Assembly (NCBI GenBank): GCA_947458265.1
Contig: CANGYF010000022.1
Location: forward strand, 1 to 64,000
Direction of reading: 5' to 3'
Length of the DNA: 64,000 bases
Source of the DNA: Betaproteobacteria bacterium
GTDB taxonomy: Bacteria; Pseudomonadota; Gammaproteobacteria; Burkholderiales; CAIKXV01
The position numbers and the translations under genes were made by a program. Positions 13,368-37,355 of this stretch are shown here, piece by piece; position 1 is the stretch's first letter, and each line of letters starts with the position of its first letter. Under the pieces are notes generated by a model. It was given only the letters and a program-made list of their open reading frames with translations, was not told the DNA's origin and ran no database searches.

Positions 13368-16039
<2,672 letters not shown>

Positions 16040-19337: not shown

Positions 19338-20336
19338 ATGCTTTTCCTGACCGAACGCGACGTGATCGACGCCCTGTCGGGCGGACATCCGGCACTTGAA
19401 TCCGTCGAGCTGATCGAGGAAATGATGCGGCAGCAATCGGCCGGCAGCACGTTCCAGCTCAAGCGCAGCACGATGACCCACCCGGACCATCCCGGCCACC
19501 TGTGGCACAACATCCGGATCCTTCCCGGGATGGTGCCGGACATGGGTACCGCGGCCGTGCGCGTCTACTCGGGCTACCGAGGTACCAACCGCTCCGAGGT
19601 GATCTGTCTGTTCGACTGGGACACGATGCAGATGGTCTCGATCATCTCCGACTACCACCTGCATGCTATCCGCACCGCGTCGCCGTACGGGGTGGCTGCG
19701 AAGCACCTCGCGCGCGAGGACGCGAGTTCCATCGGCATCATCGGCACCGGCCGCTATGCGCGGGCGATGACCGCGGCGACCTGCGCGGTACGTCCGATCC
19801 GGAAGGTAAAGGCCTACAGCAGGGATCCAGCGAACGTACGCGACTTCTGCGAGGTCATGCAGCGCGAGCTCGGCATCGAGGTCGAGCCGGCACCGTCCGG
19901 ACGTGAAGCGGTGCGTGGTACCGACGTGATGATCACGGCGACCTCGGGCAATGTTGTGGTCTTCGAATCGGGCTGGCTGGAACCTGGTGCGCTGCTGATG
20001 TCGCTCGCCCCCGGCGAGTTCGATCCGGAGACGATCCTGCGCTCGCGCGTGTTCCTGTCGAGCACCGAGCAGGTGCTCGGCGACGACCCGCCGCGCAAGC
20101 CGTTCTCGACGGTGCTGGCCGACGGCCGCTTCCGCGCGGAGGATGTCTGCGCCGAGGTCTGCGACGTGGTGGCGGGCAAGAAAACCGGGCGCGCCAGTCC
20201 CGAGGACATCATCCTCTACGAATCGCCGGGCATGGGCATCCTAGATGCCGCCATCGGCCAATGGGTGTATGACCGCGCCAGGCAGAAGGGCCTGGGCACC
20301 GAACTGCCTTTCGGCGAGGCAGTCGGCGGGCACTGA
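19338..20336 (+). CDS. Ornithine cyclodeaminase/mu-crystallin family protein (copy 1)
   Basis: A 332-residue NAD(P)-dependent protein of the OCD/mu-crystallin family, whose members cyclise ornithine, reduce imino acids or oxidise opine-like amino acids. The Rossmann motif is IGIIGTGRYARAM near 132-144. AIRTASPYGVAAKHLA before it and MITATSGN after it are family features. AGAGGAGT precedes the ATG at a good distance. A second, only moderately similar family member is encoded at 28914, at the other end of the nitrogen-catabolic region, so the two may act on different imino or amino intermediates. True ornithine cyclodeaminase activity is not implied. Confidence 0.88.
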   Translation: MLFLTERDVIDALSGGHPALESVELIEEMMRQQSAGSTFQLKRSTMTHPDHPGHLWHNIRILPGMVPDMGTAAVRVYSGYRGTNRSEVICLFDWDTMQMVSIISDYHLHAIRTASPYGVAAKHLAREDASSIGIIGTGRYARAMTAATCAVRPIRKVKAYSRDPANVRDFCEVMQRELGIEVEPAPSGREAVRGTDVMITATSGNVVVFESGWLEPGALLMSLAPGEFDPETILRSRVFLSSTEQVLGDDPPRKPFSTVLADGRFRAEDVCAEVCDVVAGKKTGRASPEDIILYESPGMGILDAAIGQWVYDRARQKGLGTELPFGEAVGGH

Positions 20337-20340
20337 CGAC

Positions 20341-20497
20341 CGCGCGAGATCCTGCGCATGCCGGAGATGAGTACCATCCCGCTCGGACTGGGGGCCGAGC
20401 CCTCGTCGTCCACACCCGAGGCATTCGAGAAATCCTGAAGAGCGAGATCGTGAAATGGGGCAAGGTGATCAAGGCAGCCAGCATCGAACCGATGTGA
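20341..20497 (+). pseudogene. Frameshifted C-terminal fragment of a Bug receptor
   Basis: Directly after the OCD gene, one frame reads EILRMPEMSTIPLGLGAEP and then STPEAFEK. After a one-base deletion the next frame gives LKSEIVKWGKVIKAASIEPM and a TGA at 20495-20497. Put together this is the last 50 or so residues of a Bug/TctC receptor (compare SEIVKWARVIKRAG at the end of the receptor at 1341). No start or N-terminal part is present. It is a remnant of a lost receptor gene that once followed or preceded the neighbouring catabolic genes. Confidence 0.75.
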
Positions 20498-20522
20498 GCA
20501 CACGCCAGCCGCGGAGGCTGGC

Positions 20523-21476
20523 ATGAAGCCGGCTACATCTGGCGGCATCCGGCAGCAGGCCTATTCCTTCATCCAGCCGCTCGCAGGCTCGGCATGGCCG
20601 GCGCACCTGACCTTCGTTCCTACGCGCGACGAACTCTACGTGCCGATCGTGCTGCGCAAGCCGGACGGTGACGGCCCGTTCCCGGTGATCACCATGGGCC
20701 GTGGCGATGGGCACGGCGGCATGCCGCACGTGCTGGAGCAGGTGCAACGGCTGCGGGCCATGCAGGATGTGCTGATCCGGCGCGGCTATGTGATTGTGTA
20801 CGTGAACTACCGGCATGAGATCCCGCGTGCCTACGGCCATGGGCCGGCGGTCGATATCGCCGACGACATCAGCGGCGGCGAGAACCTCGTCCGCAAGTCC
20901 GCCGCCACGCTCGACTCCGACGATCTCGCGGTGATCTGGCAGTACCTGCAGGGCCTGCCGTTCGTACGGCCCGAGGCGATCGGGGCCATCGGCATCAGCC
21001 ATGGCGGCGAAATGATCCTGAAGGCGGCGGCCGAAGGCGCCCCGCTCGCGGCCGGCGTAGTGGCCGAAGGGGCATCGCACGAATTCCTGTCGGTGGACAC
21101 CGGCCCGTCCGCACCGCGCATCGCGGGCGAACTCCAGTACCACGACATCGACGTCGTGAAGCTCCATGCCGACAAGGCGGCGGCGATGGCCCGCATCGCG
21201 CGTATCCGTGCACCGATGCTGCACATGGGACGCTACACCGACCACCTGCAGGGCATCTTCGAGCTGGCCCATGAATGGATGCGAGAGGCGGGCAAGGTCT
21301 CCGACTGGGCCTGCTTCGAGCATCCCGACCACGGCTACTGCCTGGTCTATCCCGGCGCGGACGGTAGCTTCGACCCGGACCCTGTGCAGCGCCTCGCCTT
21401 CGAGCTGTACATGGATTTCTTCGACCGCCACCTGAAGCAGGAGGCGTACGAGGCAGAGGCCTCAAATACCGCGTGA
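20523..21476 (+). CDS. Alpha/beta hydrolase (dienelactone hydrolase/S9 peptidase-like)
   Basis: A 317-residue serine hydrolase. The nucleophile elbow is GAIGISHGGEMI with Ser near residue 159; an early VITMGRGDGHGG loop fits the oxyanion region, and HPDHGYCL near 268 supplies a candidate catalytic His. The family cleaves esters, lactones or peptides; the substrate is unknown. It follows the receptor remnant by 25 bases and precedes a secreted-looking amidase on the same strand by 63 bases, so it may belong to the transcription unit that runs on through the amidase and pyrE-like genes. Confidence 0.8.
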   Translation: MKPATSGGIRQQAYSFIQPLAGSAWPAHLTFVPTRDELYVPIVLRKPDGDGPFPVITMGRGDGHGGMPHVLEQVQRLRAMQDVLIRRGYVIVYVNYRHEIPRAYGHGPAVDIADDISGGENLVRKSAATLDSDDLAVIWQYLQGLPFVRPEAIGAIGISHGGEMILKAAAEGAPLAAGVVAEGASHEFLSVDTGPSAPRIAGELQYHDIDVVKLHADKAAAMARIARIRAPMLHMGRYTDHLQGIFELAHEWMREAGKVSDWACFEHPDHGYCLVYPGADGSFDPDPVQRLAFELYMDFFDRHLKQEAYEAEASNTA

Positions 21477-21539
21477 AGTCACTGATCCCGTCCATCAACA
21501 ACAACTGAAAGCCATGCCTGGAGGCGCTCGAAGCGCGTT

Positions 21540-23135
21540 ATGCGGTTCTCAACTATCCGGACGAGCCCAAAACCACACCTCGGATTTGCACTGGCGATGC
21601 TGCTCTGCATCTGGAGCATCGCCGCACCCGTGCATGCAGCTGCCACGGCGAACATCCCCCGCCTGCGGGCCCTCGACTTCAAACCGTTCGAGACCGCACT
21701 CGCGCGCTTCACGCCGCAAGCGGCCGCGGAGGTCGACGCACTGTTGCGGCATGCGACGATCCCGCAGGTCCAGGCAGCCATGGCCTCGGGCGGCCTTTCT
21801 TCGGAAACGCTCGCGCTGTACTTCCTCGATCGCACTCGACGCCACGATGAACGGCTGCGCGCGTATCTCGAACTGAATCCGGCCGCGCTCGACGAAGCCC
21901 GCGCTGCCGATGCGCGACGCAAGGCCGGCCGACTGCTCGGGCCGCTCGACGGCATACCGATCAGCCTGAAGGACAACATCGAGACCGGGCCACCGATGCA
22001 CACGACTGCCGGCAGTGCGCTGCTGCTCGACCATGTCGCGAAGGCTGATGCACCGCTGGTCGCGCGGCTGCGCACGCAAGGTGCGGTGATCCTCGGCAAG
22101 GCGAACCTTTCCGAGTTCGCGGGCGTCGTGACGCTGGGTCCTCGTATCGGCGGAAGCAGTGCGGTAGGCGGGCAGACGATGAATCCGCACGGCGCGGCGG
22201 TCACTGGTGGCTCCAGTGCAGGCTCGGCAGCCGGCACCGCGGCGCGGCTGGCGATGGCCAGCATCGGCACCGAGACCTCGGGTTCGTTGATAGCGCCGTC
22301 TGCCTGGAACGGCGTGGTCGGCATGAAGCCGGGCAGGGGGAGGGTGGACGGCGCTGGTATCGTGCCGCTGCTGTCCGCAAACGATACGCCTGGACCGGTT
22401 GCACGATCGGTGACCGATGCCGCCCTCCTGCTCGATGCGATCGCGCTGCAGCCCGCGCGTTTCGCGGCAGGCCTGCGCAAGGACGCGCTGTCCGGCGTTC
22501 CCGTCGGCGTGCTGGAGCGCGACATTCTGGAAGGGCGCGGCAACGCCGTGCTGCTCGATCGCGCAAGGAAGGGTCTGGCGGCTGCGGGTGCCTTGCCGCG
22601 TGCGACCCTGCTGCCGCAGTCGCCGGCCTGGGCGGGCGGCGCACCGTTCGTGCAGTTGCTGGCATCCGGCATGCGGCTGGACATGATGGACTACGTGTCG
22701 AAACGGGGCGCCGGTGTCACGACGCTGGACGACCTGCTCGCCTGGTACCGCGCGATGCCGGACCGGCGCGCACCGTTCGGCATCGACATGATCGCCGCGC
22801 TGTCGAAGGTGCCCGCGCTCGACCGACCCGCGCACGAGGCACTCGTTCTCCGACTGCGGGGCGCTGCTGCAGCCATCCTGGATGCGACCTTCGAAAAGAC
22901 CGGTGCACGCGTGCTGGTGAGCCTCGAGAACATGCACTCTACGCTGTACGCGACAGCGGGCTATCCCGCGATCACCGTGCCACTGGGGCTGCGCGAGGAC
23001 AGCGGCACGCCGGCCGGCATCACCTTCATCGGCCGCCGCGGCGAGGACGGCGCACTGCTGTCGATGGCCTACGCATTCGAACAGGCGGCGCGGCTGCGGG
23101 TCGAGCCACCGCTGGATTACACTGGGCGTCCCTGA
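21540..23135 (+). CDS. Exported amidase, amidase signature family
   Basis: A 531-residue amidase with the Ser-cisSer-Lys triad. Lys is in GIPISLKDNIE, the cis-Ser in TGGSSAGSAAG and the nucleophile in GTETSGSLIAPSA. Residues about 12-35 form a hydrophobic segment ending VHAAA, so the enzyme is probably exported, unlike the other amidases of this window. It should hydrolyse an amide to the acid and ammonia; the substrate is open. It lies only one base before the orotate-phosphoribosyltransferase-like gene, so the two are likely co-transcribed. Confidence 0.9.
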   Translation: MRFSTIRTSPKPHLGFALAMLLCIWSIAAPVHAAATANIPRLRALDFKPFETALARFTPQAAAEVDALLRHATIPQVQAAMASGGLSSETLALYFLDRTRRHDERLRAYLELNPAALDEARAADARRKAGRLLGPLDGIPISLKDNIETGPPMHTTAGSALLLDHVAKADAPLVARLRTQGAVILGKANLSEFAGVVTLGPRIGGSSAVGGQTMNPHGAAVTGGSSAGSAAGTAARLAMASIGTETSGSLIAPSAWNGVVGMKPGRGRVDGAGIVPLLSANDTPGPVARSVTDAALLLDAIALQPARFAAGLRKDALSGVPVGVLERDILEGRGNAVLLDRARKGLAAAGALPRATLLPQSPAWAGGAPFVQLLASGMRLDMMDYVSKRGAGVTTLDDLLAWYRAMPDRRAPFGIDMIAALSKVPALDRPAHEALVLRLRGAAAAILDATFEKTGARVLVSLENMHSTLYATAGYPAITVPLGLREDSGTPAGITFIGRRGEDGALLSMAYAFEQAARLRVEPPLDYTGRP

Positions 23136-23136
23136 T

Positions 23137-23892
23137 ATGCATGCCCAGCCCATGACCGACCCCGCGTCGCCGCCTCCGCCCGGCAAGCCACCGATCCCGC
23201 CCGACACGCTGACCGTCGCCGCCGACACCGCGCAGGCCCTGCTCGCGCTGAAGGCGGTCCTGGTCTACGAGCGGCAGCCGTTCATCTACACCACGGGCTG
23301 GGCCAGCCCGGTGTATGTCGACTGCCGCCGCCTGATGTCGCATCCTGGCCATCGCCGGCTGCTGATGGATCACGCCGCCGGGCTGCTGCGTGCGCGGCTG
23401 GGCTCGTCGATCGACGTGATCGCCGGCACCGAGACCGCCGGCATCCCGTTCGCCTCGTGGATCGCAGACCGGCTCGACCTGCCGATGGTCTATGTACGCA
23501 AGAAGTCGGTCGGCTGGGGATCGCATGCACAGATCGAGGGGGACCTGCCAGAGGGCGCACGCTGCCTGCTCGTGGACGACCTCACGACCGACGGTCGCTC
23601 CAAGATCGGCACGGCCCGCGCGTTGCGCCAGGCCGGCGCACGGCTGAGCGACATCTTCGTGATCTTCAACTACGACATCTATCCGCAGAGCCGGCAGGTG
23701 TATGAGGACAACGGCTTCACCATGCACGCGCTGGCCACCTGGAAGGACGTTTTCACCCAGACAAAGTCACTGAGCTACTTCACGCCGCAGCGCGCGAAGG
23801 AGATCAAGGATTTCCTTGCCGACCCGGTCGGCTGGTCCGCGCTGCATGGCGGCGCCGGCGTCGTACCCAGCGGCACGCCCGAACATGGATGA
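23137..23892 (+). CDS. Orotate phosphoribosyltransferase-like protein
   Basis: A 251-residue type I phosphoribosyltransferase resembling PyrE. It has AGTETAGIPFASWIAD in the orotate-side region, the basic loop VRKKSVGWGSHAQIEG and the PRPP-binding motif CLLVDDLTTDGRSK near 147-160. A proline-rich leader of about 25 residues and a tail after residue 225 extend the usual length of about 215. The start at 23137 and a second ATG at 23152 are both possible. It sits inside an amidase-carbamoylase unit and overlaps the next gene by eight bases. A role in salvage or sensing of a pyrimidine-like ring is inferred; housekeeping pyrE would be expected elsewhere. Confidence 0.85.
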   Translation: MHAQPMTDPASPPPPGKPPIPPDTLTVAADTAQALLALKAVLVYERQPFIYTTGWASPVYVDCRRLMSHPGHRRLLMDHAAGLLRARLGSSIDVIAGTETAGIPFASWIADRLDLPMVYVRKKSVGWGSHAQIEGDLPEGARCLLVDDLTTDGRSKIGTARALRQAGARLSDIFVIFNYDIYPQSRQVYEDNGFTMHALATWKDVFTQTKSLSYFTPQRAKEIKDFLADPVGWSALHGGAGVVPSGTPEHG

Positions 23893-25156
23893 GGTGTGTA
23901 TAGATCGGCTCGACCCGTCCCTGAAGGCGATCGCAGGCAAGCTGTTCGACCAGGTCCGGCAGGCCACCTACGACGGCGTCGGTGTCACGCGCGCGAGCTA
24001 CGGCGAGGGCGAGAACCGCGCGATGGCGATCATCGAGGCATTCGCGCGTGACGAAGGTCTCGCCTGCGAGCGCGACGCGGTGGATAACCGGATCATCCAC
24101 GTGCCCGGTGAGCCCGCTGGTGCGCCGGTGCTGATTGGCTCGCACCTGGACTCGGTACCGCAGGGCGGCAACTTCGACGGCCTCGCCGGCGTCGTCGCCG
24201 GACTGCTGGTGCTGCTGCACTACAGCCGCCGCGGGCAGGTTCCGCCGCGGCCGATCCATGTGCTCGCGCTGCGCGGTGAGGAGAGCGCGTGGTACGGCAA
24301 GGCCTACATGGGTTCGCTCTCGCTCACCGGGCAACTCACCGCCACCGACCTCGACCTGACGCAGCGCGAGACCGGCCGTACGATGCGCGAGGACATGCAG
24401 GCGCTGGGCATCGACACTGCGCGCATCGAAGCCGGTGAGCGGCTGATCGATCCGGCCCAGGTCGCGGCCTACCTCGAGCTGCACATCGAGCAGGGCCCGA
24501 CGATGGTCGCGCGCAAGTGGGCGGTGGCGCCGGTCACCGGCATCCGTGGCAACGTGCGGCACAACCGCATCCTGTGCAAGGGCGAGACTGGCCATTCCGG
24601 CGCGGTGCCGCGCTGGTTGCGCAAGGACGCGGTACTGGCGGTGGCAGAACTGATGACCCGTCTCGACGACCACTGGCGCGTGCTGCAGCAGATGGGCATG
24701 GACATGGTGATGACCTGCGGCATGGTGTCCACCGACCCGAAGAGCCACGCGGTGTCGGTGATCCCGGGCGAGGTCGCGTTCAGCTTCGAGGTGCGCAGCC
24801 AGGACAACGACGTGCTCGAGCGCTTCCACAAGCTGATGATGGAGGAGTGCGACCGCATCGGCCGCTCGCGCGGGGTCGAGTTCCAGCTCGACCGGCGGCT
24901 ATACACCGCGCCGGCGACGATGGACCCGGACTGGGTGGCCCGCCTGTCACGCGCCTGCGAGGCAGAGTCTATCGACATGGAACCGATGCCCAGCGGCGCT
25001 GGCCATGACGCAGCGGTGTTCGCCAACGCCGGGGTGTCGTGCGGCATGGTGTTCGTGCGCAACGACCGCGGCTCGCACAATCCGCACGAGGCGATGGACC
25101 TGCAGGACTTCTTCAGCGGCGTCGAGGTGCTGCACCGGGCCATCGTGGCGGACTGA
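23885..25156 (+). CDS. M20-family N-carbamoyl-L-amino-acid hydrolase/ureidohydrolase
   Basis: A 423-residue zinc amidohydrolase of the hydantoinase/carbamoylase (HyuC/AllC/AmaB) family that removes carbamoyl groups from ureido acids. Metal-site motifs are present in order: GSHLDSVPQGGNFDG, the Glu pair in LRGEESAWYG, ELHIEQGP and, near the C-terminus, SGAGHDAAVF. The dimerisation lid domain lies between them. The ATG at 23885 overlaps the end of the preceding phosphoribosyltransferase gene by eight bases, which indicates translational coupling. With the ring-opening amidohydrolase at 27814 it suggests ureide breakdown: ring opening gives a ureido acid and this enzyme would take it on to ammonia, CO2 and an amino acid or acid. 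Confidence 0.9.
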   Translation: MDEVCIDRLDPSLKAIAGKLFDQVRQATYDGVGVTRASYGEGENRAMAIIEAFARDEGLACERDAVDNRIIHVPGEPAGAPVLIGSHLDSVPQGGNFDGLAGVVAGLLVLLHYSRRGQVPPRPIHVLALRGEESAWYGKAYMGSLSLTGQLTATDLDLTQRETGRTMREDMQALGIDTARIEAGERLIDPAQVAAYLELHIEQGPTMVARKWAVAPVTGIRGNVRHNRILCKGETGHSGAVPRWLRKDAVLAVAELMTRLDDHWRVLQQMGMDMVMTCGMVSTDPKSHAVSVIPGEVAFSFEVRSQDNDVLERFHKLMMEECDRIGRSRGVEFQLDRRLYTAPATMDPDWVARLSRACEAESIDMEPMPSGAGHDAAVFANAGVSCGMVFVRNDRGSHNPHEAMDLQDFFSGVEVLHRAIVAD

Positions 25157-25183
25157 TCCGCTCGGCTCGCCGCGGTGCGGGGA

Positions 25184-26185
25184 TCACTCCGCCTTCGCGC
25201 CGGCGAGCTTCACCAGCTTCGCGTACTTCTCGACTTCCTGCCTGAAGAACGCGGGGAACTCGTCTGGGCCCAGGTTGCGCGGGTCGGCGCCGTCGCGAGC
25301 CATCGCGGCCTTCACATCGGCGGCCGCTTGCGCCTTGCGGATCTCCTCGTACAGCCGCGCCACCACCGGCGCCGGCGTGCCGGTCGGTACGAAGAAGCCG
25401 TACCAGGCATCGGTCTCGAAACCCGGGAACATCGAGGCCATGGTCGGTACGTCGGGCAGGTTGGTCGAACGCTGTGCGGTACTCACCGCCAGCGGCCGCA
25501 AGCGGCCAGCCTTCAGGTGCGGCGTCGCGCCGACCGCACCGACGAAGCCCATGTCGACCTCGCCGCCGAGCAGGGCTGTGATCACCGCGCCGGCGCCCTT
25601 GTACGGGATGTGGGTGATCGATGACTTCGTGAGGTCGGCCAGCAGCACGCCCGACAGGTGGCTGGTGGTGCCGCTGCCGTTGGAGCCGAAGTTCAGCCCT
25701 CCGGGACGCTTCTTCGCCAGCGCGACCAGTTCCTTCACCGATTTCGCCGGCACCAGCGGATGCACCACCAGCACCAGTGGCACGGCCGCGACCAGCGCGA
25801 CCGGCCGCAGGTCGGCGATCGCGTCGTAGTTGAGCTTAGGATAGAGGCTCACGTTCACCGCCATCGAGTTGGTAGTGAACATCACCGTGTAGCCGTCGGC
25901 CGGTGCCTTGGCGGTGATCTCGGCGCCGACGTTGCCGCCGGCCCCGGCACGGGTATCGACGACCACGGTGCGTCCGAGCTGCTCGGACAGCTTCTGCGCG
26001 AACAGGCGGCCGAGGATGTCGGCGCCGCCGCCGACGGCGAACGGGACGACCAGGCGGATGGGCTTGGCGGGCCACGCGGGGGCCTGGGCGGCAGCCGGCA
26101 TCGGTCCCATGAGTACCACGGCGCCGGCAAGCGCTGCGGGGGCTGCAAGGGCGGCGATCCTGGGGCGGGAAACACGCGGGGTCAT
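25184..26185 (-). CDS. Bug/TctC-family periplasmic solute-binding receptor
   Basis: A 333-residue receptor. The start at 26185 is supported by AAGGA upstream; a signal peptide ends at about Ala34 (PAAAQA). The mature protein begins PAWPAKPIRLVVPFAVGGGAD and carries LGRTVVVDTRAGAGG and the loop APADGYT. VGGGAD keeps the glycine pair that contacts the ligand carboxylate in this family. It is encoded opposite to its neighbours, convergent with the carbamoylase gene by 27 bases and divergent from the amidohydrolase at 26256. Functional linkage to ureide catabolism is suggested by position only. Confidence 0.93.
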   Translation of the reverse strand: MTPRVSRPRIAALAAPAALAGAVVLMGPMPAAAQAPAWPAKPIRLVVPFAVGGGADILGRLFAQKLSEQLGRTVVVDTRAGAGGNVGAEITAKAPADGYTVMFTTNSMAVNVSLYPKLNYDAIADLRPVALVAAVPLVLVVHPLVPAKSVKELVALAKKRPGGLNFGSNGSGTTSHLSGVLLADLTKSSITHIPYKGAGAVITALLGGEVDMGFVGAVGATPHLKAGRLRPLAVSTAQRSTNLPDVPTMASMFPGFETDAWYGFFVPTGTPAPVVARLYEEIRKAQAAADVKAAMARDGADPRNLGPDEFPAFFRQEVEKYAKLVKLAGAKAE

Positions 26186-26255
26186 GGCTGGTCCTTCATC
26201 GTCGGGATCGGGCATATTAGGGCCATTCCCGAACGTGATCACAGGAAGTATCGCC

Positions 26256-27770
26256 ATGACCCCTTCCCGTAAACCGCTGCTCATCCGCGGCGCCCGCGTC
26301 CTCGACCTGGCCGGTGACCTCGACAACCCGCCCGCCCGGGACATCCTGTGCGAAGGCGGCGCGATCACCGCGGTCGACACCGGCCTGGTCGCCCCCGCCG
26401 GCGCGGACGTGATAGAGGCGTCGGGCATGCTGGCCATCCCCGGCCTGGTCAACTCGCACTACCACTCGCATGACGTGCTGGCCAAGGGCATGTTCGAGGA
26501 CCTCTCGCTCGAGCACTGGGGCGTGCTGGCCGGACCGCTCGGCTCGAAGCGCTCGCTGGCGGAGGTCCGTGCCCGCACGCTGGCCGGCGCTCTGGAATGC
26601 CTGCACAACGGCATCACCACGGTGCAGGACATGAACAGCGCTGCGCCGTTCTCCGATGCGGTGCTGGACACCATCGTCGATGCCTATGCCGAAGCGGGTA
26701 TCCGGGTCATCCTGGGCATGACGGTACGCGACCAGTCGCAGCTCGACACCATCCCCTGGATCGACACGCTCGCGCCGGCCGAGCTGCACGGCATCATCGG
26801 CACCGCACGCGACGAGCCGGCCGCGCAGATGGCCTTCCTGGAAGCCGCGATGGAACGCATCGGCGACCGCGGGGGCATGCTGCGCTGGGCACTGGCACCG
26901 TCGGCACCGCAACGCTGTTCACCGGGCCTGCTGGAAGCGGTGGCCGACCTGTCGCGCCGCCGCTCGCTGCCTGTCTACACCCATGTCTACGAGAGCCGCA
27001 CCCAGCGAATCTTCGCGCACGAACGGCTGCAGGCGCACGGCGGCTCGGCCGTCCGGCTGCTCGAGGACACCGGGCTGCTCGGCCCGCACGTCTCGCTCGC
27101 GCATGCGATCTGGCTCGAGCCCGACGAACTCGAGAAGGTCGCCGCCACCGGCACCAGCGTGGTGCTGAACATGCTGAGTAACCTGAAGCTCAAGAGCGGC
27201 GTGGCACCGATCCTCGAGTATCGCGAGCGCGGGGTGAACATCGCGCTCGGCTGCGACAACTGCAGCTGCAGCGACGTACAGAGCCTGCTGCAGGTGATGA
27301 AGCTGTTCTGCCTGCTGGCCGCAGTCAGTACGCCGGAGCGCACCGGGGTCACCGCCGCCGAGGCACTGCGCGCAGGCACGCTCGGCGGTGCGCGCAGCGC
27401 CGGCCTTGCCGGATCGATCGGCGCGATCAAGCCCGGCCACCGCGCCGACCTGGTGCTGATGGACCTGTCCGACCCAGCCTACCTCCCGTACAACAGCGCG
27501 ATCCGGCAGCTGGTCTATGCAGACAGCGGCCGCTCGATCCGGCGGGTGGTCGTCGATGGCGAGGTGGTGGTGCAGGACGGACGCAGCACCCGCGTCGACG
27601 AGGCCGCGCTGCGTGCGGAGATCGCAGGCCTGATGCCGTCGGTACGCGCCGACATCGACCGTCTCCAGGCTGGCTACGTTAGAGTAAGGCCCTATATCGA
27701 CGAGGTGAACAGGCGCGCATGGTCGATGCCGCTGCCGATCCATCGCCACGTCGGATTGCCACGGCCCTGA
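26256..27770 (+). CDS. Deaminase-type amidohydrolase (AtzA/TrzN/cytosine deaminase superfamily)
   Basis: A 504-residue cytoplasmic metallohydrolase with the composite beta-sandwich/TIM-barrel layout. Ligand motifs are NSHYHSHDVL (HxH), a His in YTHVYESR, a His in LAHAIWLEP and the Asp in LGCDNCSCSD. The C-terminal beta-sandwich strand GSIGAIKPGHRADLVLMDLSD is typical. These enzymes replace an amino or halogen group on a ring by hydroxyl, or open small rings. Directly downstream, 43 bases away, is a cyanuric acid hydrolase/barbiturase-type gene, so this enzyme may prepare the ring substrate by deamination. The start is the ATG at 26256 beneath AGGAAG. Confidence 0.9.
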   Translation: MTPSRKPLLIRGARVLDLAGDLDNPPARDILCEGGAITAVDTGLVAPAGADVIEASGMLAIPGLVNSHYHSHDVLAKGMFEDLSLEHWGVLAGPLGSKRSLAEVRARTLAGALECLHNGITTVQDMNSAAPFSDAVLDTIVDAYAEAGIRVILGMTVRDQSQLDTIPWIDTLAPAELHGIIGTARDEPAAQMAFLEAAMERIGDRGGMLRWALAPSAPQRCSPGLLEAVADLSRRRSLPVYTHVYESRTQRIFAHERLQAHGGSAVRLLEDTGLLGPHVSLAHAIWLEPDELEKVAATGTSVVLNMLSNLKLKSGVAPILEYRERGVNIALGCDNCSCSDVQSLLQVMKLFCLLAAVSTPERTGVTAAEALRAGTLGGARSAGLAGSIGAIKPGHRADLVLMDLSDPAYLPYNSAIRQLVYADSGRSIRRVVVDGEVVVQDGRSTRVDEAALRAEIAGLMPSVRADIDRLQAGYVRVRPYIDEVNRRAWSMPLPIHRHVGLPRP

Positions 27771-27813
27771 AGCAGTCCTGCCCGCAGACCCTGCACGAAC
27801 CGAAGAGACGAAC

Positions 27814-28911
27814 GTGACCGCACATGTGATTGCCTACGACACCGCAAACCCCGGCGATGTCAGTGATTTCAGCCGCAACCTCGCCCGCTTCGAACCGGCG
27901 CGTATCCGGAAGCTCGCGCTGCTGGTGAAGACCGAGGGCAACTCCGACGTCAACGACTTCTCGCGTGAATTCGCGCTGCTCAGTCTGACCGCCGCCATCG
28001 AGGCACATGGCGGCAAGGCACTGGCCGAGCGGTCGACCTTTCTGATCTCGACCGGCTGCGAAGGCGCGATGACACCGTTCGGCTACCTGTTCGTCGACCT
28101 GGAAGACGCGGTTGGCGAATCCGCTGCTGCGCCGTCGGCGACGGCGGGGCAGGGCAGAGCGCTCGCCTTCGGCTGCGCACGCAGCCGCTCGCTGACACCG
28201 GAAGAGATCGGCACCCCGGCGCATGCCGTGATCGTGGCCGAAACGGTGGAAGCCGCAATGCGCGATGCGGGCGTGAAGGCAGACGATGTAGCGCTCGTGA
28301 TCGTGAAGACCCCGGTCACCAGCCACATCCCGGCCACGGCCGGGGCGGTACGCAACACCCGGGTCACCTCAGCGCATTCCAAGGCGGTCGGCGCGCTCGG
28401 TGCCGGCTTGGCGCTGGGCGAAGTGCCGCGCGAGAAGATCGTGCAGGAGGCGTTCAACACCGACCACAGCCTGTACGCGAAACGGGCGATGGTGTTCTCC
28501 GGCGCCGAACTCGACTGCGTCGAGATCATGCTGCTCGCCAACCGGCCCGGCGCCGCCGGCGACCTCAGCGTGCACACCGGCTTCCTGCGCGACGTGCTCG
28601 ATGCCAAGGGGCTGCGCGACATGTATACCGCGGCTGGCTGCACCTTCGATGCGGACGGGCAGGTCGCACATGCGGAGCGCGTGGTCGCCACCCTGATCAA
28701 GGCCGGTTCGGCGCCCGACGGCAAGGTGCGCGGCGTGCGCACCACGATGAAGAGCAGTCACCTCGACATGGACAAGCATGTGCGCGCCGCAATGAGCGGC
28801 ATCATCGGATCGATCCTCGGCTCGACCCGGACCTTCATCTCGGCCAACACGGTGCACCAGGCGCCGCCCGGTGGCGGGTTGTGCGCATGCATCGTGCGCA
28901 AGGCGTCCTGA
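27814..28911 (+). CDS. Ring-opening amidohydrolase, cyanuric acid hydrolase/barbiturase family
   Basis: A 365-residue member of the small AtzD/TrzD/barbiturase family, whose fold has three repeated domains each giving a Lys-Ser pair. All three pairs are visible: Lys39 (LLVKTEGN) with Ser79 (LISTGCEG), Lys165 (VIVKTP) with Ser229 (VFSGAEL), and Lys296 (LIKAGS) with Ser343 (FISANTVHQ). Spacing and length agree with characterised AtzD. Members open cyanurate to carboxybiuret or barbiturate to ureidomalonate; which of these applies cannot be decided here. The start is a GTG at 27814. It lies between a deaminase-type amidohydrolase and an OCD-like gene, all on the plus strand. Confidence 0.9.
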   Translation: MTAHVIAYDTANPGDVSDFSRNLARFEPARIRKLALLVKTEGNSDVNDFSREFALLSLTAAIEAHGGKALAERSTFLISTGCEGAMTPFGYLFVDLEDAVGESAAAPSATAGQGRALAFGCARSRSLTPEEIGTPAHAVIVAETVEAAMRDAGVKADDVALVIVKTPVTSHIPATAGAVRNTRVTSAHSKAVGALGAGLALGEVPREKIVQEAFNTDHSLYAKRAMVFSGAELDCVEIMLLANRPGAAGDLSVHTGFLRDVLDAKGLRDMYTAAGCTFDADGQVAHAERVVATLIKAGSAPDGKVRGVRTTMKSSHLDMDKHVRAAMSGIIGSILGSTRTFISANTVHQAPPGGGLCACIVRKAS

Positions 28912-28913
28912 CC

Positions 28914-29897
28914 ATGGGCCAGTTGCGCATCCTCTCCGAAAAAGACGTGCGTTCGGTGCTCGACACGAGCACCGCTCTCGACCTCGCACGCCGCACCCTG
29001 ATCGACCAGACGGCGGGACACAGCCTGCTGTCTTCGCCGTCCGCGATGTCGCTGGACGCGCGGCCGGTCGGCGGGCCGAAGTTCAAGTTCAAGGCGGCCG
29101 CCGTCGGCTACCTGAACGCTTCCGGCATCCGCCTGCTGTCGCATCCCGGGCCCACCACGATGAACACCAACTACTGCGCGGTGTACGACCACGCGGGCTA
29201 CCAGCTCTCCGGCCTGGTTTCGGATCACTGGCTGAGCCGGCTGCGCACCGCTGCCTTCGGCGCGGTCTCGGCACAGGCGCTGGTGAACCCCGGGCCACTG
29301 GTCGTCGCGCTGTTCGGTACCGGCGGAATCGCGAGCGAGATCGCGCCGATGCTCACGCAGGCGCTCGACGTGAAGGAACTTCGGGTTACCTCGCGCCAGA
29401 TGAAGAACATGGAGGCGTTCATCGCCGCACAGGCGGGCGATGTCCAGGCAGCGATGCGTGCAGAACCCGATGGCCACAAGGCGGTCGACGGCGCCGACCT
29501 GGTGGTCACGCTGACCGAGTCGCCGTCACCGCTCGTGTTCGGTGGGACGCTGAAGCCGGGTGCGGTCGTCTGCTCGATGGGCAGCTACAACGAGGTCGAC
29601 TATCCGGTACTGGCCGAGGCCGACCGCTTCATCGTGGACGACATGGACTTCGCGGCAGAGATGGGCGATGGCGGCGCATGGATCGAGCAGGGTCACCTGA
29701 CCCAATCGACGTTCCGAGCACGCGTCGACGCGCTCGCCTGCGAGGTGCTGTCGGGCACAAAGCCGGGCCGGAAGACGCCATCGGACCGGATCATGGCGCT
29801 GATCCAGGGCATGGCGATCGGCGATGTCGCCTTCGCCGCCCATGCGTTGCGCGAAGGCGAACGGCGCGGCCTTGGCAGGACCGTGCCGCTCGACTGA
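28914..29897 (+). CDS. Ornithine cyclodeaminase/mu-crystallin family protein (copy 2)
   Basis: A 327-residue NAD(P)-dependent family member with the dinucleotide motif VALFGTGGIASEI and the downstream VVTLTESPSPLVFGG strand. The ATG at 28914 comes two bases after the stop of the ring-opening amidohydrolase, so the two are surely co-transcribed. In other bacteria such proteins reduce or deaminate small imino or amino acids. Coupling to a ring-opening enzyme suggests it acts on a nitrogenous intermediate of that pathway, which is an inference. It is convergent with the next Bug gene, with three bases between the stops. Confidence 0.88.
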   Translation: MGQLRILSEKDVRSVLDTSTALDLARRTLIDQTAGHSLLSSPSAMSLDARPVGGPKFKFKAAAVGYLNASGIRLLSHPGPTTMNTNYCAVYDHAGYQLSGLVSDHWLSRLRTAAFGAVSAQALVNPGPLVVALFGTGGIASEIAPMLTQALDVKELRVTSRQMKNMEAFIAAQAGDVQAAMRAEPDGHKAVDGADLVVTLTESPSPLVFGGTLKPGAVVCSMGSYNEVDYPVLAEADRFIVDDMDFAAEMGDGGAWIEQGHLTQSTFRARVDALACEVLSGTKPGRKTPSDRIMALIQGMAIGDVAFAAHALREGERRGLGRTVPLD

Positions 29898-29900
29898 CCG

Positions 29901-30884
29901 CTACTGATCGATCCTGATGTTCGCCCGCTTCACGATATCCGTGTAGCGGGTGGTTTCGGCGCGCAGGAACTTGGCGAACTGCGCCGAATCCATCGGCATC
30001 GGATTCATGCCCTGCTTGGCGAGCGCCGCGCGGAAGTCAGGTGTCGCGACGTTGTCTACGACCAGCTTCGAGATACGGTCGATCGCTTCCCGGGGGGATT
30101 TGGCCGGCATCAGCATGCCGTACCAGAGGCGGATGTCGAGCCCGGGGATGCCGCCTTCGGCGAAGGTCTGCATGTTCGGGAACTCAGGGTCGCGGGCCGT
30201 GCCGGTGACCGCAACCGGCTTGACCTTGCCCGACTTGAACACCGGGTTCATCGAAGCCATCGAACCGAAATACATGTTCACATGGCCGCCCAGCAATGCC
30301 GCCATCGCATCGCCGCCGCCCTTGTAGGGGACCGGCGTCATCTTCACGCCGGTGATCAGCGTGAACAGTTCACCCGCCAGGTGCTGGTTGCCGCCGATCT
30401 GGGTCGTGGCGTAGGTCAACGGCTGCGGCAGCGACTTGCCCCAGGCGATGAACTCCTTCAGGTTCGATGCCGGGACAGACGGATGCACGCCCATGCCCAG
30501 TTCCGCCACCGACATCGCTGCCACAGGCTCGAAGTCCTTGATCGGATCGTAGGGCAGCTTCATCAGCGCGCCGGCAATGGCATGCGTGGTCAGGATGGAC
30601 AGCAATGTGTGGCCATCCGGATTGGCATTGGCCACGTACTGCGTACCGATGCGACCATCCGCGCCCGGTCGGTTGTCGACCAGCACCGGTTGTTTCAGCG
30701 CATCGGAAAGCCTCGGCGCGAGCAAGCGGGCGGCCACGTCGGACGAGCCACCCGAATAAGGTACGACGATGCGGATAGGACGGTTCGGATACTGACCGGC
30801 CGGCTGTGCCGCCTGTGCGACGGTGGCGACGAATGCGGCCGACAGCAGAACTGCGCTAACGGCAGGGATAGCGATCCTGATCAC
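29901..30884 (-). CDS. Bug/TctC-family periplasmic solute-binding receptor
   Basis: A 327-residue receptor. I choose a GTG start at 30884 because AAGGAG stands eight bases upstream and a normal signal peptide (to about Ala26, VAQAAQ) follows; an upstream ATG would add 84 residues without receptor similarity. The mature part begins QYPNRPIRIVVPYSGGSSD and contains KQPVLVDNRPGADG and NPDGHT, so the usual Tyr of the loop is His. It lies 82 bases downstream of the amidase gene at 30967 on the same strand, so the pair may serve uptake and hydrolysis of one amide. Confidence 0.92.
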   Translation of the reverse strand: MIRIAIPAVSAVLLSAAFVATVAQAAQPAGQYPNRPIRIVVPYSGGSSDVAARLLAPRLSDALKQPVLVDNRPGADGRIGTQYVANANPDGHTLLSILTTHAIAGALMKLPYDPIKDFEPVAAMSVAELGMGVHPSVPASNLKEFIAWGKSLPQPLTYATTQIGGNQHLAGELFTLITGVKMTPVPYKGGGDAMAALLGGHVNMYFGSMASMNPVFKSGKVKPVAVTGTARDPEFPNMQTFAEGGIPGLDIRLWYGMLMPAKSPREAIDRISKLVVDNVATPDFRAALAKQGMNPMPMDSAQFAKFLRAETTRYTDIVKRANIRIDQ

Positions 30885-30966
30885 GAAGCTGCTCCTTGGT
30901 GAGGTCCTGTCTGCCGGAGTGTTGCAAAATCCGTGCCGTTGCGCCAGCAGCGCACGGATCGCGTGA

Positions 30967-32352
30967 TCACAGCGGCGGCAGGGCGGGCGGGGGCGGCAGG
31001 CAGCCTTCGGCGACACGGGCAAGCGCCAGCAGCAGGCGCTCATCGCCGCCCGGCGCAGTGAGATGCACGCCTGCGGGCACGCGTGCACCAGGATAGAGCC
31101 CCATCGGCAGCGAGATCGCGCAGGCATCGACCGCATTGGCCGCCCGCACGAAACAGTTCCGGTGCGGATCGATCGGCACGGTACGGCCGCGGACCTCGAG
31201 CGACTGCGTCTCGAGGCCCGGCGCCGCGAACGGCCAGGTGGGGGTCAGCACCGCGCCCGCACCCGCGGTCTTCAATGCGGCCGGCAGCGTACGGCGCAGC
31301 GCGGCGCAGGCCGCACGCGCGGCATCTACCGTCACAGCATCGAGTTTTGCCGCATTGGCCGCGCGCAAGCGGATGCCGTCGCTGGCGAGCGAGATGTCCA
31401 TCCCGGCCAGTGCACGGCCGGATTCGAACAGCGAGACCACGCCGGCCGCATGTTCGCCTGCCATCCAGCCCGGCACCTCACCATCGACCAGTTCGAAGCC
31501 GGCTTCGGCCAGGCGTGCGCAGGCTGCCTCGAACAGAGCGAGCGTCTCGTCGTCGCACATCGTGTCCACCAGCTCGCGCAGCACCAGCAGCCGGCGCCGC
31601 GGCGCATCGATGCGCGCGCCCGGCTCATCGGCCAGCGCGTCCCATGCCGTCTCGACATCCACGACGCTGCGGCCGATCAGCCCGATGGTCGACAGGCTGG
31701 GCGCATGGTTCGCCTTGCCGGCGATCGACAGACCACCGATGCGCGGCATGAAGCCGACCACGCCGCAATGGCAGGCCGGATTGCGGATCGAGCCACCACT
31801 GTCGGTGCCGATGTCCACCTGGGTGATGCCGAGCGCGGAGGACACGCCGCCCCCGGTGGACGACCCTCCGGCAGTGCGCGACACATCCCACGGATTGAGC
31901 CCCATCGGCTCGAACGCGTTGGTCACGCCGTACATCGCAAGTTCGGATAGCGTGGTGGTACCGAGCACGATGCCGCCGGCCGCACGTACCCGCTGCACGA
32001 TACCTGCATCGTGCGCCGCGATGCGCGTGCGGAAGATGTTGCTGCCTTCCGTCCATGGCAGGCCGGCGACCGGTATGCTGCCCTTCACGCTCACCGCCAG
32101 GCCGTGCAACGGACCTCGGATGCGACCTGCGTCGAGTTCGGCCTGCAGGCCTTCGGCACGGGTCATCGCATCGCCGGCCAGGTACGAGAACGCGCGGTAG
32201 GTCGGGTTGAGGCGGGCGATGGCTTCAAGCGATGCCCCGATGAGGGACGGGACGCGCATGGCACCGCTGGCGAGCTCGGCGTGCAGCGCGGCGATGGAAC
32301 GCGAGGATGCGATGGTCACGGTCGTGGCACCGGTTCGGACTAAGTTGGACAC
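30967..32352 (-). CDS. Amidase, amidase signature family
   Basis: A 461-residue amidase. Triad residues are in GLAVSVKGSIP (Lys), AGGSSTGGGVSSAL (cis-Ser) and DIGTDSGGSIRNPA (nucleophilic Ser). Unlike the exported amidase at 21540 it has no signal peptide and so acts in the cytoplasm. It is followed on the same strand by a Bug receptor gene, and the region upstream of its start (about 32353-32650) contains a fragment of a decayed Bug gene on the opposite strand. The substrate is not predictable from the sequence. Confidence 0.9.
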   Translation of the reverse strand: MSNLVRTGATTVTIASSRSIAALHAELASGAMRVPSLIGASLEAIARLNPTYRAFSYLAGDAMTRAEGLQAELDAGRIRGPLHGLAVSVKGSIPVAGLPWTEGSNIFRTRIAAHDAGIVQRVRAAGGIVLGTTTLSELAMYGVTNAFEPMGLNPWDVSRTAGGSSTGGGVSSALGITQVDIGTDSGGSIRNPACHCGVVGFMPRIGGLSIAGKANHAPSLSTIGLIGRSVVDVETAWDALADEPGARIDAPRRRLLVLRELVDTMCDDETLALFEAACARLAEAGFELVDGEVPGWMAGEHAAGVVSLFESGRALAGMDISLASDGIRLRAANAAKLDAVTVDAARAACAALRRTLPAALKTAGAGAVLTPTWPFAAPGLETQSLEVRGRTVPIDPHRNCFVRAANAVDACAISLPMGLYPGARVPAGVHLTAPGGDERLLLALARVAEGCLPPPPALPPL

Positions 32353-35282: not shown

Positions 35283-36242
35283 TCATGCGCGTACGCCGCG
35301 ATACCACTGCGCATAGTCCTGCAGCAGCCGCGCCATCGGATACTGCGGAACATACCCGAGGTGTCTTGCGGCGCGCGAGATGTCCGCCGGCTTCCAGTCG
35401 CCACCGCTCCAGGTCGATCCTTCCGGCTGCGCCTCGATGCGCGTGCGCGTCCCCGGGATCGCGGCCTCCAGTACCGCAGCCAGTTCCTGCGGCCGGTAGA
35501 TGCGCCCCATGGTGATGTTGAAGACGCCGCTGCCCAGGTCGACTGCGTCGATCGCCTGCACTGTGGCCAGCGCGGCATCCTTCGAATACACCCACTCCAT
35601 CGCGGTGCCCGGGATCACCGCTTCCCGCCCGTCGACCGCAGCCTCCAGCATCGCGCGGAAGATACCGCTCGGACCGCCTCCGCCAGGGCCGCTCCAGGGT
35701 CCGGCGACCGGGCAGTAGCGCAGCGCCGCGAACGCGATGCCGAAGCTGCGCGCATAGTTGAGGCCGATGCTCTCGACCGCCTGCTTGGTCGCCGCATAGA
35801 ACGTGTGAGGCCGCGGCACCGCTTCTTCCTTCGACAAGTCTCCGCCATCCTCGCCGCCGCTCTGGTAGCGGTTGAGCACGCTGGAACTCGACGCAACCAC
35901 CCGGCCGATGCCGTGGATGCGCGCGGCTTCCATCACGTTGGCCAGACCCATGATGTTCAGTTCGATCGCGGCGTACGGGTTGCGCTGCGCGCCCAGCGTC
36001 AGCAGCGGATTGGCGGCGGTATGCACGATCGCATCGACCTTTGCGCGCGCGAGCGCTGAACTGATCGACAGCGGCCGCAGCACATCGCCCTCGAACAGAT
36101 CGATTGCCGACGGATCCAGCAGCGTCGCCAGCACCTCGCGCTGCGGACGCGCGTCCATCACCAGCGGTCGCTCGCCGCGCTCGGCGAGGATCCTGGCGAC
36201 TTGCGCGCCGACCAGCCCGGCACCGATGATCAGTGTGGTCAT
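35283..36242 (-). CDS. NAD-dependent epimerase/dehydratase (extended SDR)
   Basis: A 319-residue extended short-chain dehydrogenase. The Rossmann glycine motif is IIGAGLVGAQVA (residues 5-16), DIVH-like AIVHTAANP follows, the catalytic pair is YAATK near 170, and the Ser partner is in VVASSSSVLN. Such proteins act on nucleotide sugars or on simpler hydroxy or keto substrates, and many in catabolic clusters are not sugar enzymes. It is divergent from the Bug gene at 36363, with a short control region between, and is upstream of the alpha/beta hydrolase gene on the minus strand. Confidence 0.88.
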   Translation of the reverse strand: MTTLIIGAGLVGAQVARILAERGERPLVMDARPQREVLATLLDPSAIDLFEGDVLRPLSISSALARAKVDAIVHTAANPLLTLGAQRNPYAAIELNIMGLANVMEAARIHGIGRVVASSSSVLNRYQSGGEDGGDLSKEEAVPRPHTFYAATKQAVESIGLNYARSFGIAFAALRYCPVAGPWSGPGGGGPSGIFRAMLEAAVDGREAVIPGTAMEWVYSKDAALATVQAIDAVDLGSGVFNITMGRIYRPQELAAVLEAAIPGTRTRIEAQPEGSTWSGGDWKPADISRAARHLGYVPQYPMARLLQDYAQWYRGVRA

Positions 36243-36265
36243 GCCTTGTCCTCCATGCTGCCCAG

Positions 36266-36271
36266 TATAAT
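36266..36271 (+). promoter_or_regulatory. Possible -10 element upstream of a Bug gene
   Basis: A perfect TATAAT lies about 90 bases upstream of the receptor start at 36363. The best nearby -35 candidate, TTGTCC at 36246-36251, gives a spacer of only 14 bases, so the promoter is weakly supported. Confidence 0.3.
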
Positions 36272-36362
36272 GCCGGGCAATGCGAGCACTGCTGGAGACA
36301 ACGGCAACACCGGTTGCGTCAGCACGACCCTGACCGGTACCGCATCAACCTGGGGGATGACG

Positions 36363-37355
36363 ATGTCCACACGCAGCCGCCTCGACGGGCCCGTCGCGCG
36401 CCTGATCGCCTCGCTCGCATTTCTTTGGGCGTTCTCAGCCTCGGCAGGCTTCGCACAGGATTACCCATCGCGCCCGATCCGCTATCTCGTGCCTTTCGGG
36501 CCCGGCAGCATCGGCGACATCACCGCGCGGACCGTCGGCCAGAAGATGTCCGAGTCCATGGGCCAGCCCGTCATCATCGACAACCGGCCGAGTGCCGGCC
36601 TGATCGTCGCATCGGTCGCGGCCGCCAAGGCAGAGCCGGACGGCTACACCGTGTTGCATACGGGCAATGGCGCAGCACTGACCGTGTCGATGTTCAACAG
36701 CCTGCCGTACGACATCGTGAAGGACTATGCACACGTCTCGACGCTGGGCTTCTTCGACATGGCCGTACTCGGCGCCGCTGACACGCGTTTTTCGTCGCTC
36801 GCCGACGCGCTGGCGCATGTGCGTGCGAATCCCGGCAAGCTCGACATCGGCACGCTGAACATCGGCAGCACGCAATACCTGGCGGTGGAGCTGTTCAAGA
36901 CGATGGCCGGCATCCGGGCGCAGACGGTGCCCTACAAGACCTCGCCCGCTGCGCTGGCGGCGCTGCGCGGTGGTGAAGTGCAGCTGATGTTCGAAAGCGT
37001 CGGCGCGGTGATCGGGCAGGTTCGCGCGAACACGGTGAAGGCGCTGGCGGTCACCTCGAACCGGCGATCGCCGCTCCTGCCTGGCGTGCCGACCGTCGCC
37101 GAGAGTGGCGTCGTCGGCTACCACGCAGCATCATGGGCCTCGCTGGTCGCGCCGGCGCGCACGCCAGTGGCGATCGTCGATCGGTTGAACCGCGAGGTCA
37201 CGGCTGCACTGGCCTCGCCCGACGTGGTGAAACGCCTGCTTGATGTCGGCGTCGAGGCGCGCGCGAGCACGCCCCGGCAGGCCCATGACCTGATGGTGTC
37301 CGAGATCGGGAAGTGGCGCGAGGTGATCGAACGCGCCGGTATCCCGAAGCAGTAA
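36363..37355 (+). CDS. Bug/TctC-family periplasmic solute-binding receptor
   Basis: A 330-residue receptor. The ATG at 36363 has GGGGGA six bases upstream, and is preferred to the ATG at 36357, which is too close to that signal. The signal peptide ends near Ala31 (SAGFAQ). The mature start DYPSRPIRYLVPFGPGSIGD departs from the usual PGGxxD by having PGSIGD in the ligand loop; MGQPVIIDNRPSAG and EPDGYT follow. This change in a loop that touches the ligand hints at a different specificity from its paralogs. It is convergent with the CocE-type hydrolase gene, with three bases between the stops. Confidence 0.92.
   Translation: MSTRSRLDGPVARLIASLAFLWAFSASAGFAQDYPSRPIRYLVPFGPGSIGDITARTVGQKMSESMGQPVIIDNRPSAGLIVASVAAAKAEPDGYTVLHTGNGAALTVSMFNSLPYDIVKDYAHVSTLGFFDMAVLGAADTRFSSLADALAHVRANPGKLDIGTLNIGSTQYLAVELFKTMAGIRAQTVPYKTSPAALAALRGGEVQLMFESVGAVIGQVRANTVKALAVTSNRRSPLLPGVPTVAESGVVGYHAASWASLVAPARTPVAIVDRLNREVTAALASPDVVKRLLDVGVEARASTPRQAHDLMVSEIGKWREVIERAGIPKQ

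Follow-up and report, generated by a model that had tools for sequence, protein, structure and literature searches.

The breakdown of orotate, a pyrimidine and a building block of RNA, is a biochemically known pathway, and the reductive orotate fermentation of Clostridium oroticum passes from orotate through dihydroorotate and ureidosuccinate to aspartate. In Rhodococcus, a uracil phosphoribosyltransferase gene adjoins the barbiturase locus. Reductive uracil catabolism involves dihydropyrimidine dehydrogenase, dihydropyrimidinase and beta-ureidopropionase, according to the available part of one report (PMC2713857). A 2026 review treats orotate uptake as salvage in the portion available (PMC13328217). 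Among the literature matches listed, with most subscription journals outside coverage, there is no relevant report on orotate catabolism genes, and none of these matches gives a gene for the last step of orotate fermentation. We describe here a region of a 64,000-nucleotide stretch (the window) from a Betaproteobacteria bacterium of the order Burkholderiales (contig CANGYF010000022.1, assembly GCA_947458265.1). It encodes an orotate phosphoribosyltransferase-like protein (PRT), an M20 amidohydrolase, a deaminase-type amidohydrolase (AHY), a ring-opening amidohydrolase (ROP, of a clade called ROPa) and a protein of the OCD/mu-crystallin family (OCD2). The window probably holds half of an orotate-type system for pyrimidine catabolism that is split between two contigs, judging from its sequence and from that of a second contig, C9, of the same genome. 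A first-pass annotation had proposed a route for a cyclic ureide or pyrimidine-like compound. The pyrimidine type and the removal of a carbamoyl group at the end were retained; the cluster partners, namely PyrK-PyrD, PyrC, PRT, M20 and one regulator, point to orotate or dihydroorotate rather than to a ureide of the cyanurate/barbiturate type.

Conserved clusters around the window genes and contig C9

Relatives of a helix-turn-helix (HTH) regulator are found at E<=1e-20 in 20 of the 297 genomes of the alphaproteobacterial order of genome G883, in 24 places. The 20 regions fetched represent 21 of these places and 18 genomes (a 22nd place, in G883, is locus L120; G1219 and G1165 lie outside the set). 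Cluster counts here are tblastn matches over thresholds set by the authors, and some regions end early. HTH, PyrK, PyrD and M20 occur together in 15 of the 20 regions. Out of the same 20, a transporter of the MFS or TRAP type is present in 13, PRT in ten and PyrC in eight. The cluster is made up of the HTH regulator, a transporter, PyrK-PyrD (dihydroorotate dehydrogenase (DHODH) B), M20, the dihydroorotase PyrC and PRT. A protein of about 100 residues without an NCBIfam match (L192, 12019-12321, and relatives) lies in or beside the cluster in seven of the 20 regions.

The focal genome has extra pyrE-, pyrD- and pyrC-type copies. Its second DHO_dh gene lies on C9, in a unit carried on one strand and composed of HTH, PyrK, PyrD, a second dihydroorotase PyrC, CoxG, the FAD, FeS and Mo subunits of a molybdenum (Mo) hydroxylase, and a Bug gene. 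The PyrK-PyrD pair is predicted to be an NADH-type dihydroorotate dehydrogenase: the best solved matches of the C9 PyrD are DHODH 5ue9 and DHODH B 1ep1, and its relative in locus L069 passes the NCBIfam DHODH models. The C9 PyrC, a dihydroorotase besides the presumed housekeeping copy on contig C10, reaches 404 bits with TIGR00856 (cut-off 293; 461 bits for the C10 copy) and matches solved dihydroorotases across nearly its length (best E 9.5e-114). Counting the own locus, HTH and PyrK of the unit are present in ten of ten genus loci, PyrD and PyrC in nine, one locus being cut short, and Mo hydroxylase in eight. All ten genus relatives with ROPa have the unit, located through HTH in eight and through PyrK in G301 and G330, where HTH is present too. 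Across the own order, HTH matches are obtained in 44 of 300 genomes and are full-length in only 11, namely nine of the genus (own included; in two pieces in G104), G180 and G097; the remaining 33 are short, at about 30 bits or less. Between HTH and PyrK, loci of the genus share the conserved segment TTGCTTTTTGGAC (L088 at ~9478, L158-L162 and L165, with one mismatch in L161), which is possibly an operator or promoter.

In the window, the end of PRT (23892) and the start of M20 (23885) overlap by eight bases, and ROP is separated from OCD2 by two bases, both as first annotated. Linkage of PRT with M20, and of AHY with ROP, OCD2, a Bug receptor and amidase 2, exceeds chance, as both sets recur in relatives. 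ROP, OCD2 and Bug are found in all ten same-genus loci fetched, ROP and OCD2 being always adjacent; AHY precedes ROP in all eight whose contig reaches that far (two only partly), and amidase 2 lies near ROPa in nine, the tenth contig ending first. PRT-M20 stands upstream of ROP in L037, L038 and L041, and the contig ends first in six other loci. The first-pass annotation had named a neighbourhood conserved in no relative as what would count against its proposal; the neighbourhood is conserved. The Rhodospirillales locus L069 holds ROPa, amidase 2, a second ring-opening clade (ROPb), OCD, PRT, M20, PyrD, PyrK and HTH together, and a Polaromonas metagenome-assembled genome (MAG; L070) has ROP-OCD-PyrK-PyrD-M20-HTH-PRT on one strand. 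Acuticoccus L073 combines ROPa, ROPb, OCD, PRT and M20; Pseudolabrys L067 and Xanthobacteraceae L068 combine ROPa, ROPb, OCD and HTH. Over the stretch available, L063, L065 and L072 show ROPa and OCD and no PRT, PyrK, PyrD or HTH, and among these three an M20 match, a distant one, is obtained in L072 only. Amidase 2 is near ROPa in L063, L065, L067, L069 and L073, and not in L068, L070 and L072. The ROPa relative of Dactylosporangium (L072) was set aside, its M20 being of another kind and no catabolic PyrK having been found.

As controls, 20 loci around other ROP homologues gave no match to the PRT, M20, PyrK, catabolic PyrD, PyrC, OCD and HTH queries. One housekeeping-type PyrE was seen there, and several of these loci have distant matches to amidohydrolase (28-29%), amidase (28-36%) or Mo hydroxylase (32-40%). 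These observations bear on the idea that unrelated catabolic genes were simply gathered by chance in a Bug-rich replicon. The many Bug and amidase genes of the window would suit it, but the same families are linked across classes and on plasmids, cluster genes occur in none of the 20 control loci, and conserved clusters contradict it for PRT, M20, ROP and OCD2. As an account of the whole region it is very improbable. It may hold for a first OCD gene (OCD1), a serine hydrolase of the alpha/beta type and amidase 1, whose membership of the pathway is not supported and whose linkage is weak in the fetched loci: OCD1 has no separate place there, the hydrolase is found in L037 and L041/L060 only, and amidase 1 in L037 and L038/L057 only. 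These three are tentatively regarded as flanking genes.

The closest solved structure to M20 is the N-carbamoyl-L-amino acid hydrolase 3n5f. In a 53-row tree (51 different, because of overlapping fragments of one M20; quick method, no bootstrap, long branches flagged), the window M20 falls among the cluster M20s, which form 47 of the rows; an SH-aLRT of 100 separates them from two solved carbamoylases, the L072 M20 and the M20 encoded by a second L229 gene. PRT is the second pyrE-type gene of the genome. That it is the housekeeping pyrE was considered, an NF001729 search having shown the window copy alone, and rejected because TIGR00336 matches the C10 copy more strongly (178 bits, against 98 for PRT). 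Canonical orotate phosphoribosyltransferases have a Lys and a His in their catalytic loop. This loop reads RKKSVGWG in the genus, RKKPKGFG in L069 and L155, and NRKEIKDHG in the C10 copy.

ROPa and the putative accessory branch

ROP matches the profile of the cyanuric acid hydrolase/barbiturase family (TIGR02714, 191.9 bits, cut-off 153.1) and stays under the cut-off of the cyanuric acid hydrolase equivalog NF052395 (239.6 versus 360). Alignment to the Azorhizobium enzyme indicates that all three lysines and the serines of domains 1 and 3 are kept, including Lys156, the dyad partner of Ser226 in that enzyme. In an ungapped stretch of this alignment, position 226 is Phe, position 227 is Ser and Arg188 is replaced by Lys (Azorhizobium numbering). 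The first-pass annotation had read all three Lys-Ser pairs in ROP; the serine position of domain 2 is in fact a Phe, with a Ser one residue on, and three Ser-Lys dyads are not found. In the available part of the Azorhizobium study, Ser226-Lys156 alone among the dyads is found to be absolutely conserved across 119 family members, and it is named as the likely nucleophile (PMC4051656). The combination of Phe226 and Lys188 is common to all 12 ROPa representatives, and the six ROPb representatives have Phe or Tyr at 226 with Arg188 kept. Among the other 46 of the 64 tree rows, Ser is present at 226 in 43, the exceptions being L013, L014 and L030. L013 and L014 form a third ring-opening subgroup, with Ala in place of the domain-1 serine and Ile or Val at 226; their loci (L047, L048) contain none of the cluster genes.

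The tree was built from 97 proteins reduced to 64 rows at 93% identity, the long L030 row being flagged as a possible false join. ROPa forms one group (support 100/96), as does ROPb (99/93), and both, together with two further rows, are separated from all five solved cyanuric acid hydrolase/barbiturase references (100/100). From its sequence, ROPa is best described as a divergent offshoot within a family of ring-cutting enzymes, and annotation of the clade as cyanuric acid hydrolase should be avoided. If ROP were nevertheless a barbiturase or cyanurate hydrolase, the region would serve an oxidative pyrimidine or s-triazine route, in which uracil would be converted to barbiturate by Mo hydroxylase and opened by ROP. 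Family membership through PF09663 and the TIGR02714 score would agree with this, as would the Mo hydroxylase of the genome. The deep separation of ROPa from the solved references, the Phe at the nucleophile position, the equivalog score and the Lys188 shared by all 12 representatives argue against it; R188K lowers the activity of the Azorhizobium enzyme about 5,000-fold, though in the portion of the study available a subgroup from Bacillus has Lys, and barbiturase has Gln, at residue 188 (PMC4051656). It would also leave OCD2, PRT and PyrKDC unexplained, and is on the whole improbable.

Within the own order 27 of 399 genomes match ROP, the strong ones (78-99% identity) being the own genome and ten of the same genus; the rest do not exceed 42% identity, save a 57-residue piece in G104 (52%). 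A phylum sample gives 14 matching genomes out of 398, with the own genome as the sole strong one, and the family of G432 gives 83 out of 295, where G883 and G773 reach 66-68%. A scan of genome contigs returned 17 loci, 11 of them from the genus or near kin by identity (74-96%) and the other six being L067, L068, L069, L070, L072 and L073. Plasmid relatives of ROP appear in 132 records, all below 60% identity and, among the 40 matches listed, all below 36%. Two MAGs titled Bordetella parapertussis (L061, L065) carry ROPa and look mislabelled.

Of the 19 HTH-positive genomes other than G883, 14 were seen to have the HTH-PyrK-PyrD-M20 cluster; a ROP search of all 19 gave five matches, the best at 40%, and no ROPa. 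Eight other ROPa genomes (kinship unstated for G1305 and G1306) include five with a clear catabolic PyrK, namely G773, G883, G1305, G1307 and G1308. Since cluster genomes exist without ROPa and ROPa genomes often have the cluster, ROPa is an addition to the cluster and a frequent companion of it. Ring opening by an enzyme of the cyanurate/barbiturate family had first been placed at the centre of the route, a position that does not fit the 14 cluster genomes besides G883, none of which has this ROP. A role of ROP as a replacement of PyrC was also considered and is not needed, since there are clusters that lack both PyrC and ROPa (L190, L191, L157).

The partners of ROP give some clues about a possible branch. 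Several deaminases and triazine hydrolases match AHY at similar scores, and a 48% relative of AHY comes immediately after PyrK-PyrD-M20 in L230, a position that links the deaminase to the pathway. The best solved matches of OCD2 are the ketimine reductases thiomorpholine-carboxylate dehydrogenase and mu-crystallin, at a modest E of 1.5e-15. Such a likeness, modest as it is, would suit the reduction of a ring-opened imino acid. As a whole the accessory branch would then involve deamination of an amino-pyrimidine precursor by AHY, hydrolysis of a ring amide by ROP, and reduction of the resulting imino or enamine acid by OCD2 to an N-carbamoyl amino acid for M20, feeding the same end as the core route. 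In a bolder and rather unlikely version, ROPa/ROPb and OCD would make up a new route of two steps, in which the pyrimidine ring is opened first and reduced afterwards. ROP would hydrolyse orotate, or an analogue made by AHY, to an N-carbamoyl imino or enamine diacid, which OCD would reduce to N-carbamoyl-L-aspartate, in the reverse of the PyrD-PyrC order and with a catalytic dyad other than the supposedly invariant one.

Predicted route, points against it and other window features

In the predicted core route, an orotate-like carboxylate would be imported and reduced to L-dihydroorotate by PyrK-PyrD of C9, a dihydroorotate dehydrogenase B that would use NADH and run in the reducing direction. 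The second PyrC would open the ring to give N-carbamoyl-L-aspartate, from which the window M20 would release L-aspartate, CO2 and ammonia; joint action of the two contigs is thus presumed. PRT would salvage part of the orotate to orotidine monophosphate, or serve in orotate sensing, and the Mo hydroxylase may make the orotate-like acid from a less oxidised ring. The catabolic direction is proposed because a carbamoylase and a transporter accompany the enzyme set; the DHODH reaction is reversible in principle, so that sequence does not prove the direction.

Several observations weigh against this orotate route. The focal PyrD has the motif SCPT where DHODH B has SCPN. PRT passes NF001729 (273 versus 245) and falls under the TIGR00336 cut-off (98 versus 106.8 bits); the canonical His is absent from its loop, as is the Lys within this genus, and its normal orotate phosphoribosyltransferase activity is thus uncertain. 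The halves of the system are separated onto different contigs, and in G144 (L044) PRT and M20 are not beside AHY-ROP. The segment TTGCTTTTTGGACA, conserved before PyrK in the genus, has no match in the window at up to three mismatches; as a shared operator of both loci it was rejected, near-matches in other loci being sporadic, and DNA motifs give no evidence of a regulon. Among the other ROPa genomes, a search for a clear catabolic PyrK was negative for G1306 and G1309 and gave only a 32% match for G1310. Region L231 of the latter shows matches to PyrK, PyrD, PyrC and PRT and none to M20 or HTH, so it may be biosynthetic. Five of the 20 HTH regions (L193, L200, L205, L208, L209) are without PyrK-PyrD-M20; L193, L200 and L205 have Mo-hydroxylase matches and L205 also a 44% AHY relative. 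The regulator family thus serves other genes too and is not confined to orotate.

The system might instead degrade an analogue of orotate, such as a pyrimidine carboxylate, aminated or less oxidised, that Mo hydroxylase and AHY would produce, with the pyr-like enzymes being retuned duplicates. The Mo hydroxylase within the C9 unit (eight of ten genus loci), AHY in the window and in L230, and the altered PRT loop and PyrD residue are all consistent with this. The strong similarity of the C9 PyrC to solved dihydroorotases, the general scarcity of AHY, ROP and Mo-hydroxylase matches in clusters elsewhere, and the lac-plasmid context reported below speak against it. It is a possible reading, held with less than even confidence, and it overlaps with the orotate-type one, which allows for an orotate-like acid, so that the two are not mutually exclusive. 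Taken together, the data are best read as a real, conserved catabolic system of the orotate type, with an unexplained ring-opening branch.

The features of the region are collected in the table below. Gene starts were chosen among candidate starts, and the gene caller was a simple script based on G+C by position, which missed some genes. All genes named in the first-pass annotation were recovered at their positions by Pfam and NCBIfam matches; a single OCD-like gene, two bases from ROP, had been listed, and the region has two.

Table. Position and family assignment of the genes in the window region
Feature	Position	Strand	Evidence
OCD1, OCD/mu-crystallin family	19338-20336	+	Pfam/NCBIfam match
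Peptidase_S9-type alpha/beta hydrolase (serine hydrolase)	20523-21476	+	Pfam/NCBIfam match
Amidase 1, Amidase family	21540-23135	+	Pfam/NCBIfam match
PRT, orotate phosphoribosyltransferase-like	23137-23892	+	NF001729, 273 bits (cut-off 245)
M20 amidohydrolase, predicted N-carbamoyl-L-aspartate hydrolase (ureidosuccinase activity)	23885-25156	+	Pfam M20
Bug/TctC receptor lying between M20 and AHY, uncertain member	25184-26185	-	PF03401
AHY, deaminase-type amidohydrolase, putative accessory	26256-27770	+	Amidohydro_1
ROP (ROPa clade), ring-opening amidohydrolase family	27814-28911	+	PF09663, E 2.8e-73
OCD2, second OCD/mu-crystallin gene, paired with ROP	28914-29897	+	Pfam; adjoins ROP in 10/10 same-genus loci
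Bug/TctC solute receptor next to OCD2, may take up substrate	29901 to ~30884	-	PF03401; 10/10 same-genus loci
Amidase 2	30967-32352	-	NCBIfam amidase families only, all scores under cut-off

Elsewhere in the window, open reading frames at 4373-8833 resemble ParB, ParA and a plasmid-type replication initiator by eye, and the contig may on this appearance be a plasmid or secondary replicon. A DabA-like protein (inorganic carbon uptake), also recognized by eye, lies at 11738-16039 near a LysR-like regulator (10722-11744). Translations from 36201-53149 add several Bug receptors and amidases, along with a second amidohydrolase at 40385-41833.

Plasmid copies and comparison with described systems

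With the L069 HTH protein as query, 73 plasmid records match at E<=1e-15. Ten plasmid regions were opened: four near-identical ones from Klebsiella, two from Variovorax, and one each from Nitratireductor, Paracoccus, Alicycliphilus and Cupriavidus (the last without annotation). HTH, PyrK, PyrD and M20 are present in nine of them, Alicycliphilus being the exception, and an MFS or TRAP transporter in nine of the ten. On the Alicycliphilus plasmid pDP3 (L235) the HTH relative is accompanied by Mo hydroxylases and XdhC, by an amidase and by a gene of the polysaccharide-deacetylase family, without pyr genes; this may be a further N-heterocycle regulon under this regulator family. In Klebsiella the order is MFS-PyrK-PyrD-M20-PyrC-HTH, with no PRT match (L234, 5046-12283; also L238, L239 and L240), and in all four plasmids inspected lacY begins at about 1.4 kb from the cluster, with lacZ after it. 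At an identity of at least 99% this cluster is found in 55 records, 53 of them over at least 80% of the query and two over 3% only; a search for near matches in the E. coli genome collection gave none.

Milk or mastitis is named as the source for nine of the 53 plasmid records, a raw count of listed rows without a background rate. Orotic acid is a component of mammalian milk, according to the available part of one source (PMC10608620). The main text of a paper on a mastitis plasmid contains no mention of 'dihydroorot', 'orotic', 'pyrimidine' or 'pyrC' (PMC12724306). The position of the Klebsiella cluster beside lacYZ fits a milk substrate and possibly a milk-use cassette, which suggests that Klebsiella lac plasmids may carry these genes for the use of milk orotate. 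More generally, the analysis brings candidate genes for orotate breakdown, including a candidate N-carbamoyl-aspartate hydrolase; they form a compact cluster that occurs across several classes as well as on plasmids. The plasmid annotations 'dihydroorotase', 'dihydroorotate dehydrogenase' and 'orotate phosphoribosyltransferase' become in this way a testable catabolic trait.

Among described systems, the Clostridium oroticum route has the same intermediates and end product as predicted here, whereas the present clusters are proteobacterial and include an M20 hydrolase, a transporter, an HTH regulator and PRT. The reductive catabolism of uracil, as far as the available source describes it (PMC2713857), follows the same logic of ring reduction, ring opening and carbamoyl removal; it differs in that the enzymes here are of the DHODH B and dihydroorotase types, with aspartate instead of beta-alanine as the predicted product. 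ROP is a member of the cyanuric acid hydrolase/barbiturase family as described in the portions of two reports available (PMC4051656, PMC6557486), keeps three lysines and two of three serines, and departs from it by the Ser226 to Phe and Arg188 to Lys replacements and its separate deep clade. The Rhodococcus barbiturase locus resembles the window in having a phosphoribosyltransferase beside the ring-opening enzyme, but the phosphoribosyltransferase is here of the orotate type and is accompanied by dihydroorotate enzymes.

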